DNA from: Cryomorphaceae bacterium
Lineage (GTDB): Bacteria > Bacteroidota > Bacteroidia > Flavobacteriales > Flavobacteriaceae
DNA length: 45,606 bases
Reading direction: 5' to 3'
Assembly: GCA_018646865.1 (NCBI GenBank)
Contig: JABGTW010000035.1
Location: 1-45,606, forward strand
This document shows, in pieces, positions 13,708 to 21,781 of the stretch. A model generated the notes under the pieces. It saw only the letters and a program-made list of their open reading frames with translations, did no database searches and was not told the DNA's origin. Position 1 is the first letter of the stretch. Every line of letters starts with the position of its first letter. A program made the translations under genes and the position numbers.

Positions 13708-16116
13708 GTGAAAATATCAATTAATTGGCTTAAAGATTACGTGGAAATCAATTCCCAACCTGAAGAAATATCTGAGATATTAACTAACCTAGGACTTGAA
13801 GTAGAAAAACTTTCATCTTTTGAATCTGTAAAAGGAGGACTTACAGGTGTGGTAGCAGGAAAAGTTTTAAAATGCGAAAAACATCCTGATGCAGATAGAT
13901 TAAAAATCACTTCTATTGATTTAGGTAATGATGAAATTTATGAAATTGTATGCGGAGCTCCTAATATTAAAAAAGGACAAATTGTTCCAGTTGCTAAAGT
14001 TGGTTCTAAAATATACACAAATGATAGTACTGAAATAAAAATTAAAAAATCAAAGATACGAGGAGTTGTAAGCAATGGAATGGTTTGTGCTGAAGATGAA
14101 ATTGGTTTAGGGGAATCGCATGAAGGAATTATGGTTCTTGATAATCATATTAAACCAGGAACACCTATAAGTGAAGTATTTAATGTTGAAAATGATAATA
14201 TTCTTGAAATTGGTCTAACTCCCAATAGGTCTGACGCTATGTCTCATTATGGTGTAGCAAGAGATTTAAAAGCTTTTTATGACTTTAAATCTTTAAAAAG
14301 TAAAATTGTTCTTCCTAGCATTAGTAGTTTTAATTCAGTAAAATTAGAGGAAGATTTTAAAATTAATGTTGAAGACACTAATAGGTGTCCTTTCTATTCA
14401 GGGTTAATAATAAAAAATATTAAAGTTGGTCCTTCATCAAAAGAATTACAAAACAAATTAAAATCTATTGGGTTAAAACCAATTAATAATATAGTAGATA
14501 TAACAAATTTTGTAATGCATGAAATTGGTCAACCTCTTCATGCATTTGATCTAGATAAGCTTGAAAACATAAATGTTAAGTCCTTAAAATCAGGAACAAA
14601 ATTTAAAACTCTAGATGAAAATATAATTGAATTAGACAAAGAAGATTTAATGATTTGTTCTAATAATAAACCTCTTTGTTTAGGAGGGGTATATGGTGGT
14701 TATGATTCGGGAGTTTCAAATTCAACAACAAACTTATTTTTAGAATCTGCTATTTTTGACCCTATAACAATTAGAAAATCATCTAAAAGACATCAGCTAT
14801 TTACTGATGCTTCTTTTAGGTATGAAAGAGGAATTGACCCTGATAAAGTAATATATGCTCTCAAAAGAGCATCAATTCTATTAAAAGAATTAAACCCAGA
14901 CTCTTCTGTATCAGAAATTATAGTAGAGGATAATTTAAAATTAAAAAGAAAGGATATATATCTGAGATATCATAAAATAGACAGCATTACAGGTCAAAAG
15001 ATAGATAAAGATATAATAACTCAGATTCTTAGTTCATTAGACTTTGAAATTATAAACCATAGCGAAGATGGACTGAATATAGTTTCTCCAAACTATAGAC
15101 ATGATGTTTATAGAGAAATTGATGTAATCGAAGAAATTCTTCGAGTTTATGGATTCAATAACATACCTATTGATTCAAAAATTTCTATCGCAATTCCAGA
15201 GATAGGACAAAATAAGATTAATAAAATTGAATCGCTTATTAGTGATAATCTAGTTGGTATCGGGTTTAATGAAATTATAAATAACTCTATTTGTTCTCCT
15301 AGTATTAATGAAAAATTCAACAATGTAGCTGTAAACCTTTTAAATCCGAAAGGAATTGAACTATCTAACTTAAGAGCTTCTCTAATTCCTAATGCATTAG
15401 AAACTATTAAACATAATTCTAATAGACAAAATAAAAATCTTAAGATATTTGAAATTGGAAAAACATACTCATTAAAAGGTGAGACTTATATTGAAAATAA
15501 AAGATTGAATATATCCGTTACTGGAGAAATATTTGATGAAAATTGGATTTCTAAATATTCAAAAAATAATTTCTATTATCTAAAGGGAGTTTCTGAAAAT
15601 TTACTAAAAAAGTTAAATATCATAAATGTAAAATACGAGATAATTAATGATGATCTATTTGAATATAAACTTGATATATATAACAACAATAAACATATTG
15701 GTTTTATTGGTGAATTAGATTCTGATTATACTCAAGAATTTTCGTTAGAACAGAAAATACACATACTTAATTTTGACCTTGACAACATAAAGTTAAGATC
15801 TATAAATATTAAACATAAAGAATTATCTAAATTCCCATCTTCAAGAAGAGATCTTTCTATGATCTTAGATGATGAAATAACTTTTGAGACTATCAAAAAT
15901 TTAGCATTTAAATTAGAAAATAAGATCTTAAAAAATGTCAATCTTTTTGATGAATATAAAGAAAAAAACATAGGAGATAAAAAGAAATCTTTCGCTGTGA
16001 GTTTTACATTTAATGACTCCAAAAAGACATTAACTGATAAAATCATTGATAAGGTAATGGTAAAGTTGGCTGATAAATATATAACAGAGCTTGGAGCAGT
16101 TCTAAGAGATAAATAG
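13708..16116 (+). CDS. pheT: Phenylalanine--tRNA ligase beta subunit
   Basis: The 802-residue protein matches bacterial PheT in length and domain order. It has an N-terminal MKISINWLKDYVEI segment, a tRNA-binding EMAP-like domain (about 40-150: VVAGKVLKCEKHPDADRLKI, VCGAPNIKKGQ), the B3/B4 editing domain with VDITNFVMHEIGQPLHAFD, and B5 with DVYREIDVIEEILRVYG. A catalytic-like core and the C-terminal anticodon-binding fold (FPSSRRDLSMILD) complete it. With PheS (not in the window) it charges tRNA-Phe. The start is GTG. Its TAG stop lies one base from the convergent ABC-F stop. In this genome pheS and pheT are therefore not adjacent on the 5' side. Confidence 0.95.
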   Translation: MKISINWLKDYVEINSQPEEISEILTNLGLEVEKLSSFESVKGGLTGVVAGKVLKCEKHPDADRLKITSIDLGNDEIYEIVCGAPNIKKGQIVPVAKVGSKIYTNDSTEIKIKKSKIRGVVSNGMVCAEDEIGLGESHEGIMVLDNHIKPGTPISEVFNVENDNILEIGLTPNRSDAMSHYGVARDLKAFYDFKSLKSKIVLPSISSFNSVKLEEDFKINVEDTNRCPFYSGLIIKNIKVGPSSKELQNKLKSIGLKPINNIVDITNFVMHEIGQPLHAFDLDKLENINVKSLKSGTKFKTLDENIIELDKEDLMICSNNKPLCLGGVYGGYDSGVSNSTTNLFLESAIFDPITIRKSSKRHQLFTDASFRYERGIDPDKVIYALKRASILLKELNPDSSVSEIIVEDNLKLKRKDIYLRYHKIDSITGQKIDKDIITQILSSLDFEIINHSEDGLNIVSPNYRHDVYREIDVIEEILRVYGFNNIPIDSKISIAIPEIGQNKINKIESLISDNLVGIGFNEIINNSICSPSINEKFNNVAVNLLNPKGIELSNLRASLIPNALETIKHNSNRQNKNLKIFEIGKTYSLKGETYIENKRLNISVTGEIFDENWISKYSKNNFYYLKGVSENLLKKLNIINVKYEIINDDLFEYKLDIYNNNKHIGFIGELDSDYTQEFSLEQKIHILNFDLDNIKLRSINIKHKELSKFPSSRRDLSMILDDEITFETIKNLAFKLENKILKNVNLFDEYKEKNIGDKKKSFAVSFTFNDSKKTLTDKIIDKVMVKLADKYITELGAVLRDK

Positions 16117-16117
16117 A

Positions 16118-17740
16118 CTATCTATAAAGTTTCTCTCTTAAGGATAGAACTTTCTGATCAATAATATATTCATTAAAAGGTAAATAACTATCAATTATCC
16201 CATTAGGAGTGATTTCAATAATTCTATTTGCAACAGATTGAGCAAAAGCTCTATCATTAGTGCTTAATAGAACAGTACCTTTAAAGTTTATCAGAGAATT
16301 ATTGAAAGCTGTAATTGATTCAAGATCAAGATGATTTGTTGGTTCATCTATAAGTAAAACATTAGGCTTACCCATCATAATTTTTGACAACATACATCGA
16401 ACTTTTTCTCCTCCTGATAAAACAGTACAAGATTTAAGTGCCTCATCACCACCAAACAACATTCTACCAAGAAAACTTCTAATAAACAATTCTTCCCTTT
16501 CCTCATCATTATTTGACCACTGTCTCAGCCAGTCAACTAAGGAAATGTTTTTATCAAAATGAGAATGATTATCCATCGGGAGGTATCCAGATGAGGTAGT
16601 AACTCCCCAGTCATAAGAACCAGATGTTTGATTTAGAGTTCCAGAAATACAATCATAAAATAAATTAATTGATCTTGAATTCTTGGATATGACAAGAACC
16701 TTCTCTCCTTTATTTAAGTTGAAACTTATATCTTTAAAATATATTTCACCATCTTTTTCATAGGATAAAGACTTAAGTTCTAAAATTTGATCACCAGCTT
16801 CCCTCTCTTGATCAAATATAATAGCAGGATACCTCCTACTAGATGGTTTAATTTCTTCAATATTAAGTTTTTGAATCATCTTCTTTCTAGCCGTAGCTTG
16901 TTTTGATTTAGCAACATTAGCAGAGAATCTAGAGATAAATTCTTGTAATTCTTTTTTCTTTTCCTCAGATTTCTTATTCTGTTGTAATTTTTGTCTAGCT
17001 GCAAGTTCACTTGATTGTTGCCAGAAAGAATAATTACCAGAAAAATGATTTATTTTACTAAAATCAATATCAGAGGTGTGGGTACATACAGCATCTAGAA
17101 AGAATCTATCATGGGAAACTACAATTACGGTATTTTCAAAATCATTAATAAAATTTGTCAGCCATTCAACTGTATTGTAATCAAGATCATTAGTAGGCTC
17201 ATCCATAATTAGTACATCTGGATTTCCAAAAAGACATTGAGCTAGAAGAACTTTAACTTTTATTTTTTGATCAATATCACTCATTTTATTTTGATGAATA
17301 GCTTCACCTATTCCAAGGCTAGAAAGCAAGTATGCAGCATCAGCATCAGCATTCCAACCATTCATTTCCTCAAAAGAAGCTTGAAGTTCCCCTACTCTAT
17401 CAGCATCTTTATCAGAAAAATCTTCTTTTGCATAAATTGAATCAATCTCACTCTTCAAATCAAACAACTTTTGATTACCAAGTATTATAGTTTCAATAAC
17501 AGTATTATCATCATAACTATTATGATTCTGTTCAAGAACTGAAAGTCTCTTTCCTGGTTCAAGAAAAACAGATCCAGTATTTGGTTCTAAATCTTTAGAT
17601 AAAATTTTAAGAAATGTTGATTTACCAGCACCATTGGCACCTATAATACCATAACAATTTCCAGGAGAAAAAGTTATATTTACCTCATCAAAGAGGATTC
17701 TCTTACCAAATTGCAACGATAAATTAGAAACAGATAACAT
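16118..17740 (-). CDS. ABC-F family ATPase (YbiT/YkpA type)
   Basis: A 540-residue ABC-F protein with two nucleotide-binding domains joined by a charged helical linker (about 245-305, KSEEKKKELQEF then ARKKMIQKL); no membrane segments. The start is ATG at 17740 (MLSVSNLSLQFGKR), seven codons inside the longest frame, matching the family N-terminus. Domain 1 has Walker A GANGAGKS (34-41) and DEPTNDLD (180-187), but its signature reads MSDIDQKIK instead of LSGGQ. Domain 2 has signature LSGGEK (441-446) and DEPTNHLD (465-472), but its Walker A position reads SKNSRSIN and its switch His is Asn. It probably acts at the ribosomal E site in translation quality control. The start codon is 4 bases from a divergent gene's. 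Confidence 0.92.
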   Translation of the reverse strand: MLSVSNLSLQFGKRILFDEVNITFSPGNCYGIIGANGAGKSTFLKILSKDLEPNTGSVFLEPGKRLSVLEQNHNSYDDNTVIETIILGNQKLFDLKSEIDSIYAKEDFSDKDADRVGELQASFEEMNGWNADADAAYLLSSLGIGEAIHQNKMSDIDQKIKVKVLLAQCLFGNPDVLIMDEPTNDLDYNTVEWLTNFINDFENTVIVVSHDRFFLDAVCTHTSDIDFSKINHFSGNYSFWQQSSELAARQKLQQNKKSEEKKKELQEFISRFSANVAKSKQATARKKMIQKLNIEEIKPSSRRYPAIIFDQEREAGDQILELKSLSYEKDGEIYFKDISFNLNKGEKVLVISKNSRSINLFYDCISGTLNQTSGSYDWGVTTSSGYLPMDNHSHFDKNISLVDWLRQWSNNDEEREELFIRSFLGRMLFGGDEALKSCTVLSGGEKVRCMLSKIMMGKPNVLLIDEPTNHLDLESITAFNNSLINFKGTVLLSTNDRAFAQSVANRIIEITPNGIIDSYLPFNEYIIDQKVLSLREKLYR

Positions 17741-17744
17741 AAAT

Positions 17745-19148
17745 ATGCGCAAAAATAACAAGTTGAAATTTCTAAAACTAATTATAGTTGTTATAATTTT
17801 ATTTTTTTCTAACTCGTGTAATAATGATACTTTAAGTGATGATTTTTTCTTAGGAGGTGAAATAATTAACCCATCTTCTAATTATGTTAATTTCTATTAT
17901 AATAATATCAAAATTGATTCAATTAGACTTGATTCTAAAAATAAATTTTTTAAAAAACTTGAAAACATACAGCCTGGAATTTACAGAATTGAACATATTC
18001 CAGAGAATCAATATGTGATTATTGAAAATGGAGATAGTCTATGGATAAGAGTTAATGTTGAGGATTTTAAAGAGTCATTAACTTTTAGTGGAAAAGGATC
18101 ATCAAAAAATAATTTTTTAGTTGATATATCTAATCTAAATGATTATGAAAATGATTTTCTTTCACAAATATATAACCAAGAAAGTAAAATTTATAAAAAA
18201 GCTATTGATTCACTTATGGAAGAAAAGAATAATATATGGAGTCTTTTTAATAAAAGTGTAAATCAAAAACGTCTCTCTCAAAATATAACTAAAGCTTCAA
18301 TAAAGTATAATTATTACAATAAACTTGAAAGATATGCTCTCTTAAGAGGTAAAGATTGGTCAGCAGGTGAGAGAAAAGATTATTTCAGCTACAGAAATGA
18401 AGTTAACTTAAATGATTCTGAGCTATCACTATTTGAGCCTTACATAACTTATCTAATGAATTATTTTAACGAAAAGACATTAGACAGTGGACAAGTTTAT
18501 TTTTTTGAAAAAAATAAAACTGATTTTAATATAAAAAAATTATTGATAATTGACTCTCAAGTGAATGAATCTTATTTAAAAAACAATCTAGCTAGAGCAA
18601 CTGCAATTGAAGAAATCTTAAATTTTAAAAATAATGATTTTCATGATAATTTTATAGACTACTACACTTATGTAAATACTTCTGAAAAATATTTAAATGA
18701 AATTTTAAAGCTTTATAAAGACATAAAAAAAATGAAAAAAGGGAATATTCTACCTGAAGTAGATATTCTTAATTTTAATGGTAATAAGATCTCAAGTAAA
18801 ACTGAATTTACAGGATCTAAAACGTTTATATATTTTTGGTCACAAACCCAAATGGATCACTATAGAAGAACAATTAGAAGAGTTGAAGAACTTAAACAAG
18901 AATTTCCAAAATACAGGTTTGTTGGAATATGTATTCAGCCATATACAGACATGGTAAGTCAAGCGCAAAACCTACTAAACCTTGATTTATCAAATCAATT
19001 TTCTTTTAGTGATTTTGAAAGTTCAAGTAAAGATTGGGTTTTAACCTTTCTTAATAAGACTATTATTGTTGACGAAAAAGTAATAATAATAGATGGTTTT
19101 AGTAACCTTTTTACTAATGATATTGAGAAAATTTTAGAAACTAATTAG
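17745..19148 (+). CDS. Thioredoxin-fold lipoprotein without the CxxC motif
   Basis: A 467-residue predicted lipoprotein: a basic N-terminus, a hydrophobic core (LIIVVIILFF) and FSNSC with C25 lipidated. The N-terminal 30-120 region is beta-rich (GGEIINPSSNYVNFYYNN), resembling the DUF4369 domain that often precedes TlpA-like domains in Bacteroidota. A helical middle follows, then a thioredoxin-like end from about 335 (ILPEVDILNFNGNKISSK, FIYFWSQTQMDHYRR, RFVGICIQP). Where TlpA/ResA has WCxxC, this has W365-S-Q-T-Q, so it cannot be a thiol-disulfide reductase by that site. The ATG at 17745 is chosen; an in-frame TTG at 17763 is the alternative. Function unknown. Confidence 0.7.
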   Translation: MRKNNKLKFLKLIIVVIILFFSNSCNNDTLSDDFFLGGEIINPSSNYVNFYYNNIKIDSIRLDSKNKFFKKLENIQPGIYRIEHIPENQYVIIENGDSLWIRVNVEDFKESLTFSGKGSSKNNFLVDISNLNDYENDFLSQIYNQESKIYKKAIDSLMEEKNNIWSLFNKSVNQKRLSQNITKASIKYNYYNKLERYALLRGKDWSAGERKDYFSYRNEVNLNDSELSLFEPYITYLMNYFNEKTLDSGQVYFFEKNKTDFNIKKLLIIDSQVNESYLKNNLARATAIEEILNFKNNDFHDNFIDYYTYVNTSEKYLNEILKLYKDIKKMKKGNILPEVDILNFNGNKISSKTEFTGSKTFIYFWSQTQMDHYRRTIRRVEELKQEFPKYRFVGICIQPYTDMVSQAQNLLNLDLSNQFSFSDFESSSKDWVLTFLNKTIIVDEKVIIIDGFSNLFTNDIEKILETN

Positions 19149-20764: not shown

Positions 20765-21781
20765 ATGAAGCATACTATTGTTTTTTTGATTTTTTTATCA
20801 GTATTAAATTGCAACTCTGATATTACTGGTGGATTTAAAATTTTAATTAACTCTTCTAATAGTTCAATCTCATTGGATAATGAAATTACTATAGATATTA
20901 AATCATCTACCAATAAGGTAATTGATTCAGTAAATTATTTTTTAAATGACATCAAGACTACCAATAAGATTAAACTAAATGACAATAAAGTTGGAGAGAA
21001 CTTAGCTAAGGTTGATATATACTCAAACGGAAAGAAGTTTTCATTAAATAAAAAATTTGACATCTTTTCTAATATTAAACCAGAGTTAATGACATATGAA
21101 ATTGTTGAAGAATATAGGCACGACCAAGAAGCATATACTCAAGGACTTGAGATTTATAATAATTTTTTATTTGAAAGTACAGGATTAAATGGAAAATCAT
21201 CAGTAAGAAAGATAAACATGAAAAGTGGAGAAATTTTAGATATAATTAATCTTGATTATGAATATTTCGGAGAAGGCTTAACTATATTAAATGACAGAAT
21301 ATATCAATTAACTTGGAAAAATAGAATTGGCTTCATTTATGATCTAGACTTAAATAAAATTGCAACCTTCAACTACAAAAATAGTCAAGAAGGATGGGGG
21401 TTATGTAATGATGGAGAGTATTTATATAAATCTGATGGAACAAGTAAAATATGGAGATTAAATCCGAATACATTGGAAGAGATTGATTTTGTTGATGTGA
21501 TGACAGATAAATCTAGAATTAAGAACATTAATGAGCTAGAATTTATAGATGGGAAAATTTATGCAAATACATATCAATTTAATCGTGATGTAGTAATAGT
21601 TATAAATCCATCAAATGGAGTAGTTGAGAAAGTAATTGACTTCAGTGGTATAAGGGATAAAGTCTTACAAACACCAGATATTGACGTAATGAATGGAATA
21701 GCTTATAACAGAGGGAAAATATTTGTCACAGGTAAAAATTGGAATAAAGTTTTTGAAGTAAAAGTTTATTCTAAGAATTAG
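20765..21781 (+). CDS. Glutaminyl-peptide cyclotransferase (plant-type fold), lipoprotein
   Basis: The 338-residue protein has a short signal ending in SVLNC (C17), an unusual lipobox with Asn before Cys, so lipidation is likely but not certain. Residues about 110-338 match the five-bladed beta-propeller glutamine cyclotransferase family: [60 protein letters not shown] and [17 protein letters not shown]. The enzyme would cyclise N-terminal Gln to pyroglutamate on exported proteins. About 90 residues of beta-rich sequence precede the propeller. Its last 11 bases overlap the convergent glyA gene. Confidence 0.85.

Follow-up and report, generated by a model that had tools for sequence, protein, structure and literature searches.

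The ybiT-type gene and its surroundings

The window analysed here is the whole stretch of 45,606 nucleotides of contig JABGTW010000035.1, which belongs to the 1.3 Mb draft genome of a Cryomorphaceae bacterium. On its minus strand, at positions 16118..17740, lies a ybiT/ykpA-type ABC-F gene for a protein of 540 amino acids, with the ATG at 17740 and the stop codon at 16118-16120; it was recognised from the open reading frame, the NCBIfam model NF011646/PRK15064 and the PDB match 9njf_Y. Two plus-strand genes flank ybiT in 17/17 genus loci examined, namely pheT (window 13708-16116) and a gene for a 467-amino acid protein without Pfam match (window 17745-19148), whose reading frame begins 4 bases from the ybiT start and runs divergently. 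Further along the plus strand, at window 20765-21781, Pfam identifies a glutamine cyclotransferase domain protein (PF05096).

Of the 25 genomes of the genus, which are incomplete drafts, 18 gave ABC-F genes in a search with the linker domain and seven gave none. YbiT is the sole ABC-F protein found in 14 of these 18 genomes, both good-quality ones included, and the other four, among them the genome studied here, additionally carry one or two Uup/EttA-like genes. The second ABC-F protein of this genome (L002:891-2798, minus strand, contig C43) reads AKNGSGKT at its first Walker A, which is a Gly to Ala change, and is otherwise canonical at the counted residues.

Assignment to the YbiT/YkpA subfamily

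Pfam model PF00005 (ABC_tran) matches two stretches of the protein, and PF12848 (ABC_tran_Xtn) matches with 62.5 bits at a cut-off of 25.9. This is the composition that defines ABC-F proteins, i.e. two ABC domains in one chain and an ABC_tran_Xtn linker. A further segment of ybiT, at 16820..17071 on the minus strand, was mapped by the Pfam search and the linker scan of the genus. The top NCBIfam model is NF011646/PRK15064 (E. coli YbiT type), whose cut-off of 762 bits is not reached (590.9 bits). As this cut-off is passed in 0/148 genomes of the phylum sample and in 1/14 control genomes, it seems to suit the E. coli-type branch only. The top PDB sequence match is 9njf_Y, E. coli YbiT on the ribosome (E 5.6e-141), and in a phylogenetic tree the window protein shares one clade with E. 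coli YbiT, separate from EttA, Uup, YheS and YdiF (SH-aLRT 99). Judged by these sequence comparisons, it is an ABC-F protein of the YbiT/YkpA subfamily.

An AF2 model of the protein (mean pLDDT 88.3, pTM 0.83) gave the EQ2-YbiT chains 9njf_Y and 9nlf_Y (E. coli, on the ribosome) as first Foldseek matches. VIA-align 2 placed human ABCF1 (Z 31.3, rmsd 3.5, 437 residues aligned) and two YbiT chains (30.7, 7.8, 485 and 30.1, 5.8, 492, respectively) on top. A predicted model is no basis for deciding on nucleotide binding at either ATP site.

Two composite ATP sites of unequal completeness

Each ATP site was defined by 12 residues. Site A comprises the Walker A motif, the Q-loop, the Walker B Asp, the Glu and the switch His of domain 1, together with the signature of domain 2; site B is the reverse, with the motifs of domain 2 and the signature of domain 1. 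All motifs described below lie on the minus strand.

Site A of the window protein is complete (0/12 departures). Its Walker A is GANGAGKST (residues 34-42, 17615..17641), which is canonical in 235/235 YbiT-type sequences with letters at this place, one further row (L311) being cut. The Q-loop residue is Gln71 (17528..17530), a Gln in 236/236 rows. Walker B, the catalytic Glu181 and the D-loop are contained in VLIMDEPTNDLD (residues 176-187, 17180..17215), with DEPTN at residues 180-184. The switch His210 lies in VVSHDR (residues 207-212, 17105..17122; SHD at 209-211), and the domain 2 signature is VLSGGEKVR (residues 440-448, 16397..16423), with LSGGEK at residues 441-446.

At site B, 10/12 residues depart. 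In the signature region of domain 1, SDIDQKIKVK (residues 154-163, 17252..17281), the sequence MSDIDQKIK stands in place of LSGGE, and the positions S157, G158 and G159 are occupied by D, Q and K. The Walker A of domain 2 is degenerate, SKNSRSINL (residues 352-360, 16661..16687); all five of its positions are changed, and Ile358 occupies the place of the Lys. Met389 replaces the Q-loop Gln (16574..16576), and Asn495 replaces the switch His in LSTNDR (residues 492-497, 16250..16267). The sole survivors are Asp465 and Glu466, within the segment VLLIDEPTNHLD that holds Walker B, Glu466 and the D-loop (residues 461-472, 16325..16360). The D-loop Asp472 of the same segment is an Asp in 203/203 rows.

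A sequence-only reading of this DNA had noted the intact Walker A and the altered signature MSDIDQKIK of domain 1, as well as the intact LSGGEK, the Walker A SKNSRSIN and the His to Asn change of domain 2; all of this is read directly in the open reading frame, with STND in the switch region, and the Q-loop change to Met389 adds to its list of losses. Its claim that every change falls on one composite site is borne out by the counts given above. The protein thus has the arrangement of a degenerate site, in which all non-canonical motifs belong to one composite site and the other is complete, and lacks the arrangement of the EttA/Uup type, where a consensus Walker A meets a consensus partner signature at both sites. 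Such a sequence is most naturally read as having one site competent for hydrolysis. By our arithmetic, the chance that ten random changes among 24 positions all fall on site B, C(12,10)/C(24,10), is ~3e-5, but residues within a motif are non-independent, so that the decisive test is how relatives compare.

Sampling of relatives and controls

YbiT-type rows were obtained from 18/25 genomes of the own genus, 113/120 genomes of the family (98/99 of the good-quality genomes) and 33/149 Bacillota genomes, in addition to the phylum sample of 148 genomes. A scan of named genomes with the peptide pattern SHDRHFL[DN] or PTNHLDLE contributed its best 80 loci, 19 of the 52 records of a plasmid collection were used, and E. 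coli K-12 was added. Up to 30 loci were taken per genome search, and 30 lower-ranking loci were added deliberately. The sample is weighted to Bacteroidota and Bacillota, with seven rows from Pseudomonadota and one to three from each other phylum. Species present both named and unnamed may count twice, and no two rows are identical over the last 450 amino acids.

As controls, 69 rows of other ABC-F proteins were included: 31 EttA, 31 Uup-like (matches to the Uup model or from E. coli) and 7 other ABC-F. Thirty Bacillota rows among the Uup-like controls score under the cut-off of the Uup model. One gene appears twice among the controls, as L149 and L259, and L235 matches L236 in its last 400 amino acids. 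A count by regular expression gave canonical motifs in 30/30 EttA and 25/30 Uup-like proteins; on reading, the other five were misses of the pattern. In the column-based count, both sites are canonical in 31/31 EttA and 31/31 Uup-like rows, the E. coli protein included.

Conservation of the asymmetry across the subfamily

None of the 236 YbiT-type rows departs at site A (L311 has no letters at Walker A), and each departs at site B, in 1-11 residues with a mean of 7.0. When only the rows below 80% identity are considered (n=105), 0/1260 cells depart at site A and 702/1260 at site B. The 69 control rows show 12/12 canonical residues at site B, and their lone departure at site A is the Gly to Ala change in the second ABC-F protein of the own genome. 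An alignment artefact is excluded, because the same alignment shows a fully canonical site B in these 69 rows, and so is a bias from the peptide-pattern scan, since the picture is unchanged without its 80 rows (156 left).

The two halves of site B are never both intact. A full domain 2 Walker A occurs in 10/236 rows, each with a broken domain 1 signature, and a domain 1 Ser-Gly-Gly in 3/236 rows, all from Bacillota and with a broken Walker A; none of the 236 rows has both. The ten rows with the full Walker A come from six Gammaproteobacteria, one Neisseria, one chlamydial and two odd Bacteroidota sequences, and the domain 2 Gln, Asp, Glu and His are all present in them too. The full motif is absent from all Bacillota rows and from all Bacteroidota rows except these two. 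Its Lys is present in 49/236 rows (29/41 in Bacillota), the domain 2 Glu is replaced in 54/236 and the domain 2 His in 47/236. Counted over 11 residues, the mean loss at site B is 4.3 in Bacillota and 9 in the own genus. In all 18 rows of the genus, 10/12 site-B residues are lost, the maximum in any row being 11. Asp465 and Glu466 are present in 18/18 of them, and site B is therefore not wholly erased even there.

At the other end of the range, the seven Pseudomonadota rows, E. coli included, depart only at one or two of the three signature residues of site B, with Ala-Pro-Gly or Ser-Pro-Gly for Ser-Gly-Gly. Because only these signature residues depart, ATP probably binds at site B of these proteins and its hydrolysis is possible. 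A site B with Ala-Pro-Gly or Ser-Pro-Gly may still work, and here the case is at its weakest.

The comparison over Bacteroidota YbiT/YkpA homologues that the sequence-only reading had suggested shows the asymmetry to be conserved; it was found throughout the subfamily sample and in other phyla as well. The search for homologues with canonical motifs at the altered positions, its own test of the claim, has a mixed outcome that on balance favours it: no row has both motifs, although ten have the full Walker A, three have the Ser-Gly-Gly, and the seven Pseudomonadota rows are off at just one or two signature residues. The presentation of the pattern as peculiar to the window protein has to be given up, since every sampled member of the subfamily shows it, to a widely differing degree.

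History and constraint of the two sites

A tree was obtained by a quick search with 77 rows, to which a set of 203 had been thinned at 78% identity; its outgroup of seven rows sits on long branches, which were flagged by a tool warning. The YbiT rows group together in a single clade (SH-aLRT 99, 77 rows), within which the rows without a full domain 2 Walker A form one nested clade (SH-aLRT 98, 72 rows), the type of the ten full-Walker-A rows branching earlier. Over the 77 tips, 0-1 changes per column are counted at site A and 3-36 at site B (11 columns each), with a median of 14 for all columns. With the trait columns excluded from the tree, canonical status changes at least 4 times at the Lys, 7 times at the Glu, 12 times at the His and 17 and 20 times at two signature positions, and not once at three site-A residues tested. 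Joint loss at the positions of Glu466 and Lys358 was a test without power, with just three independent pairs on the starred branches. The asymmetry is ancient and extends well beyond this one genome.

In the own genus, ybiT is under purifying selection. For 17/18 rows, pN/pS is 0.100 for the whole protein and 0.017 for the site-A motifs. Domain 2 as a whole has 0.122, its Walker A 0.117, its switch 0.131 and its Q-loop region 0.164, and the domain 1 signature 0.114. These values put the site-B positions close to the background rate, which gives the appearance of lost constraint and not of a newly conserved motif. The domain 2 Walker B and D-loop are still conserved (0.048), which would fit their touching site A from the other side of the interface. 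As far as the alignment tells, one site has thus been given up, with its parts drifting off separately, and the other has been kept without exception in the sample.

A probable translation factor with one catalytic ATP site

We consider it likely, from its sequence and those of its relatives, that the window protein is a YbiT/YkpA-type housekeeping ABC-F translation factor working with one catalytic ATP site. As judged from homologues such as 9njf, it would bind the E site of the ribosome in its closed state, with its linker extending towards the P-site tRNA and the peptidyl transferase centre, and assist ribosomes past difficult (charged) stretches. This activity is reported for B. subtilis YkpA, which relieves stalling on charged stretches according to sections of PMC11381351. 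The anatomy of the protein suggests that the clamp would be closed by ATP at site A, between the Walker A of domain 1 and the signature of domain 2, and that hydrolysis at site A would open it and release the protein, at one ATP per cycle. Site B would no longer hydrolyse ATP and, in the window lineage, would probably bind it poorly or not at all; what is left of it may act as a static hinge, with a D-loop and a Walker B backbone that continue to support site A.

Site A would be the counterpart of NBS-I in mycobacterial EttA, because the residues named there, A-loop His15 and H-switch His214, belong to domain 1. In passages of PMC8782954, the H-switch and A-loop of NBS-I are described as moving with a linker helix during 30S rotation. 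Such a coupling of site A to the linker would explain why this site rather than site B has been kept.

B. subtilis YkpA (YbiT) is of the same subfamily by name, as given in parts of PMC11381351 and PMC6723617. Its stand-in in our sample, the close B. velezensis relative L186, reads GRNELAVTTL at the domain 2 Walker A, and Bacillota proteins have more of site B left than the genus of the window. Since YkpA is functional and L186 is broken at this site, a broken site B presumably leaves a YbiT-type factor able to work. We tentatively extend this to the entire subfamily, with a confidence somewhat short of even: all YbiT/YkpA proteins may be one-stroke ABC-F proteins, in which a single ATP at site A suffices for loading onto the E site and for release. 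Site B would have been abandoned early and dismantled unequally by phylum: Pseudomonadota would have lost one or two signature residues, and Bacteroidota probably all nucleotide binding.

Alternative explanations

In exporters with a degenerate site, ATP stays bound there. Site B might likewise be hydrolytically dead and still bind ATP tightly, so that two ATP molecules clamp the protein, one is hydrolysed per cycle and the other acts as glue. We give this possibility nearly an even chance. It is favoured by the intact domain 2 Walker A of E. coli-type YbiT (the ten rows) and by the Walker A Lys retained in 49 rows, and parts of a review (PMC7756269) describe how exporters with such a site hydrolyse ATP asymmetrically. 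However, the window protein has all five domain 2 Walker A positions and the Q-loop Gln changed, and its closest parallel is Pdr5, which the same parts of the review (PMC7756269) place among the most deviant cases.

It is unlikely that site B has been reused, its altered pocket binding a ligand other than ATP, such as another nucleotide, rRNA or a protein, and thereby regulating the factor. In favour of this idea, members of one group resemble each other in the altered Walker A region, with S-K/R-D/N-S-R-A in many Flavobacteria rows and S-R-D-P-R-A-M in many Bacteroidales rows. A reused pocket is expected to evolve more slowly than its surroundings, whereas the five Walker A positions change at the background rate, both in the pN/pS of the genus (0.117, compared with 0.100 for the protein and 0.122 for domain 2) and on the tree, with 9-26 changes per column at a median of 14.

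Plain decay in a reduced genome, with the asymmetry as a stage of function loss, is refuted in the main and very improbable: the genome is small and the site B of its genus ranks with the most degraded ones, but the asymmetry is present in large-genome relatives and other phyla, the gene has no internal stop in 18/18 rows of the genus and is under purifying selection, YbiT is more conserved than the product of the neighbouring pheT (80-97% identity to the window over 17 genus loci, compared with 52-82% for the nearest stretch of PheT, of at most 499 amino acids), and it is the sole ABC-F found in most genus genomes that have one. The sequence-only reading had also judged that the pattern is not random decay, and the same direction of change in 236/236 YbiT-type rows supports it.

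Relation to known ABC proteins

ABC-F proteins are usually portrayed as two-ATP machines. EttA and Uup share with the window protein the tandem ABC domains, the ABC_tran_Xtn linker and binding to the E site, but differ in that their two ATP sites are both canonical (31/31 rows each). E. coli YbiT (9njf, 9nlf) is its best full-length match in sequence and in Foldseek and has the same linker, a complete site A and a likewise non-canonical domain 1 signature (VAPGWK). In contrast to the window protein, to which it is 41% identical, its domain 2 Walker A, Q-loop, Glu and His are intact.

Non-canonical motifs on one composite site are also known from Pdr5, ABCB2/B3, ABCC1 and ABCC7, as described in parts of PMC7756269, although these are membrane exporters and a channel from other ABC families. 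For Pdr5, the same parts of the review state that every motif of its degenerate site is changed and that canonical motifs put at this site abolished activity (PMC7756269). Sections of PMC11282234 describe ABC-F proteins with consensus motifs in both domains, and the main text of a large ABC-F survey (PMC6723617) contains neither 'degenerate' nor 'asymmetr'. Among the open papers searched, we found no account of a degenerate site conserved across an ABC-F subfamily, including YbiT/YkpA. Degenerate composite sites are thus well known in exporters, and here one is likely a general rule for an ABC-F subfamily.

The sampled rows of this widespread subfamily always keep the same single site, which hints that a single site is sufficient for the ribosome cycle and shows which of the two it would be. 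The mild E. coli type and the extreme Bacteroidota branch form a natural experiment on the role of each ATP in E-site factors. Ribosome work on YbiT used a double Glu-to-Gln mutant, by which the two sites are not separated. For proteins in which the domain 2 Glu is naturally replaced (54/236 rows), double Glu-to-Gln constructs would amount to single-site mutants.

Observations on individual lineages

The idea that the domain 2 P-loop has turned into helix was considered and dropped. In the AF2 model of the window protein, the helix that follows Walker A starts at residue 355 in domain 2 and at residue 40 in domain 1, so that it sets in earlier within the motif in domain 2. In the control L039, which has an intact domain 2 Walker A (weaker model, pLDDT 85.1, pTM 0.68), the helix starts at the equivalent residue 357, with the motif from 354, and it is early in the intact domain 1 too (residue 37), so that the difference is uninformative.

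Several Bacteroidales rows, e.g. L089, L090, L097 and L107, have Thr or Ser at the position of the domain 2 Glu (DTPTN, DSPTN), and the lineage of the window keeps the Glu. The two Bacteroidota rows with an intact domain 2 Walker A, L039 and L040, belong to group f26. L039 pairs with a Neochlamydia plasmid gene on the tree, and gene transfer is possible in its case.
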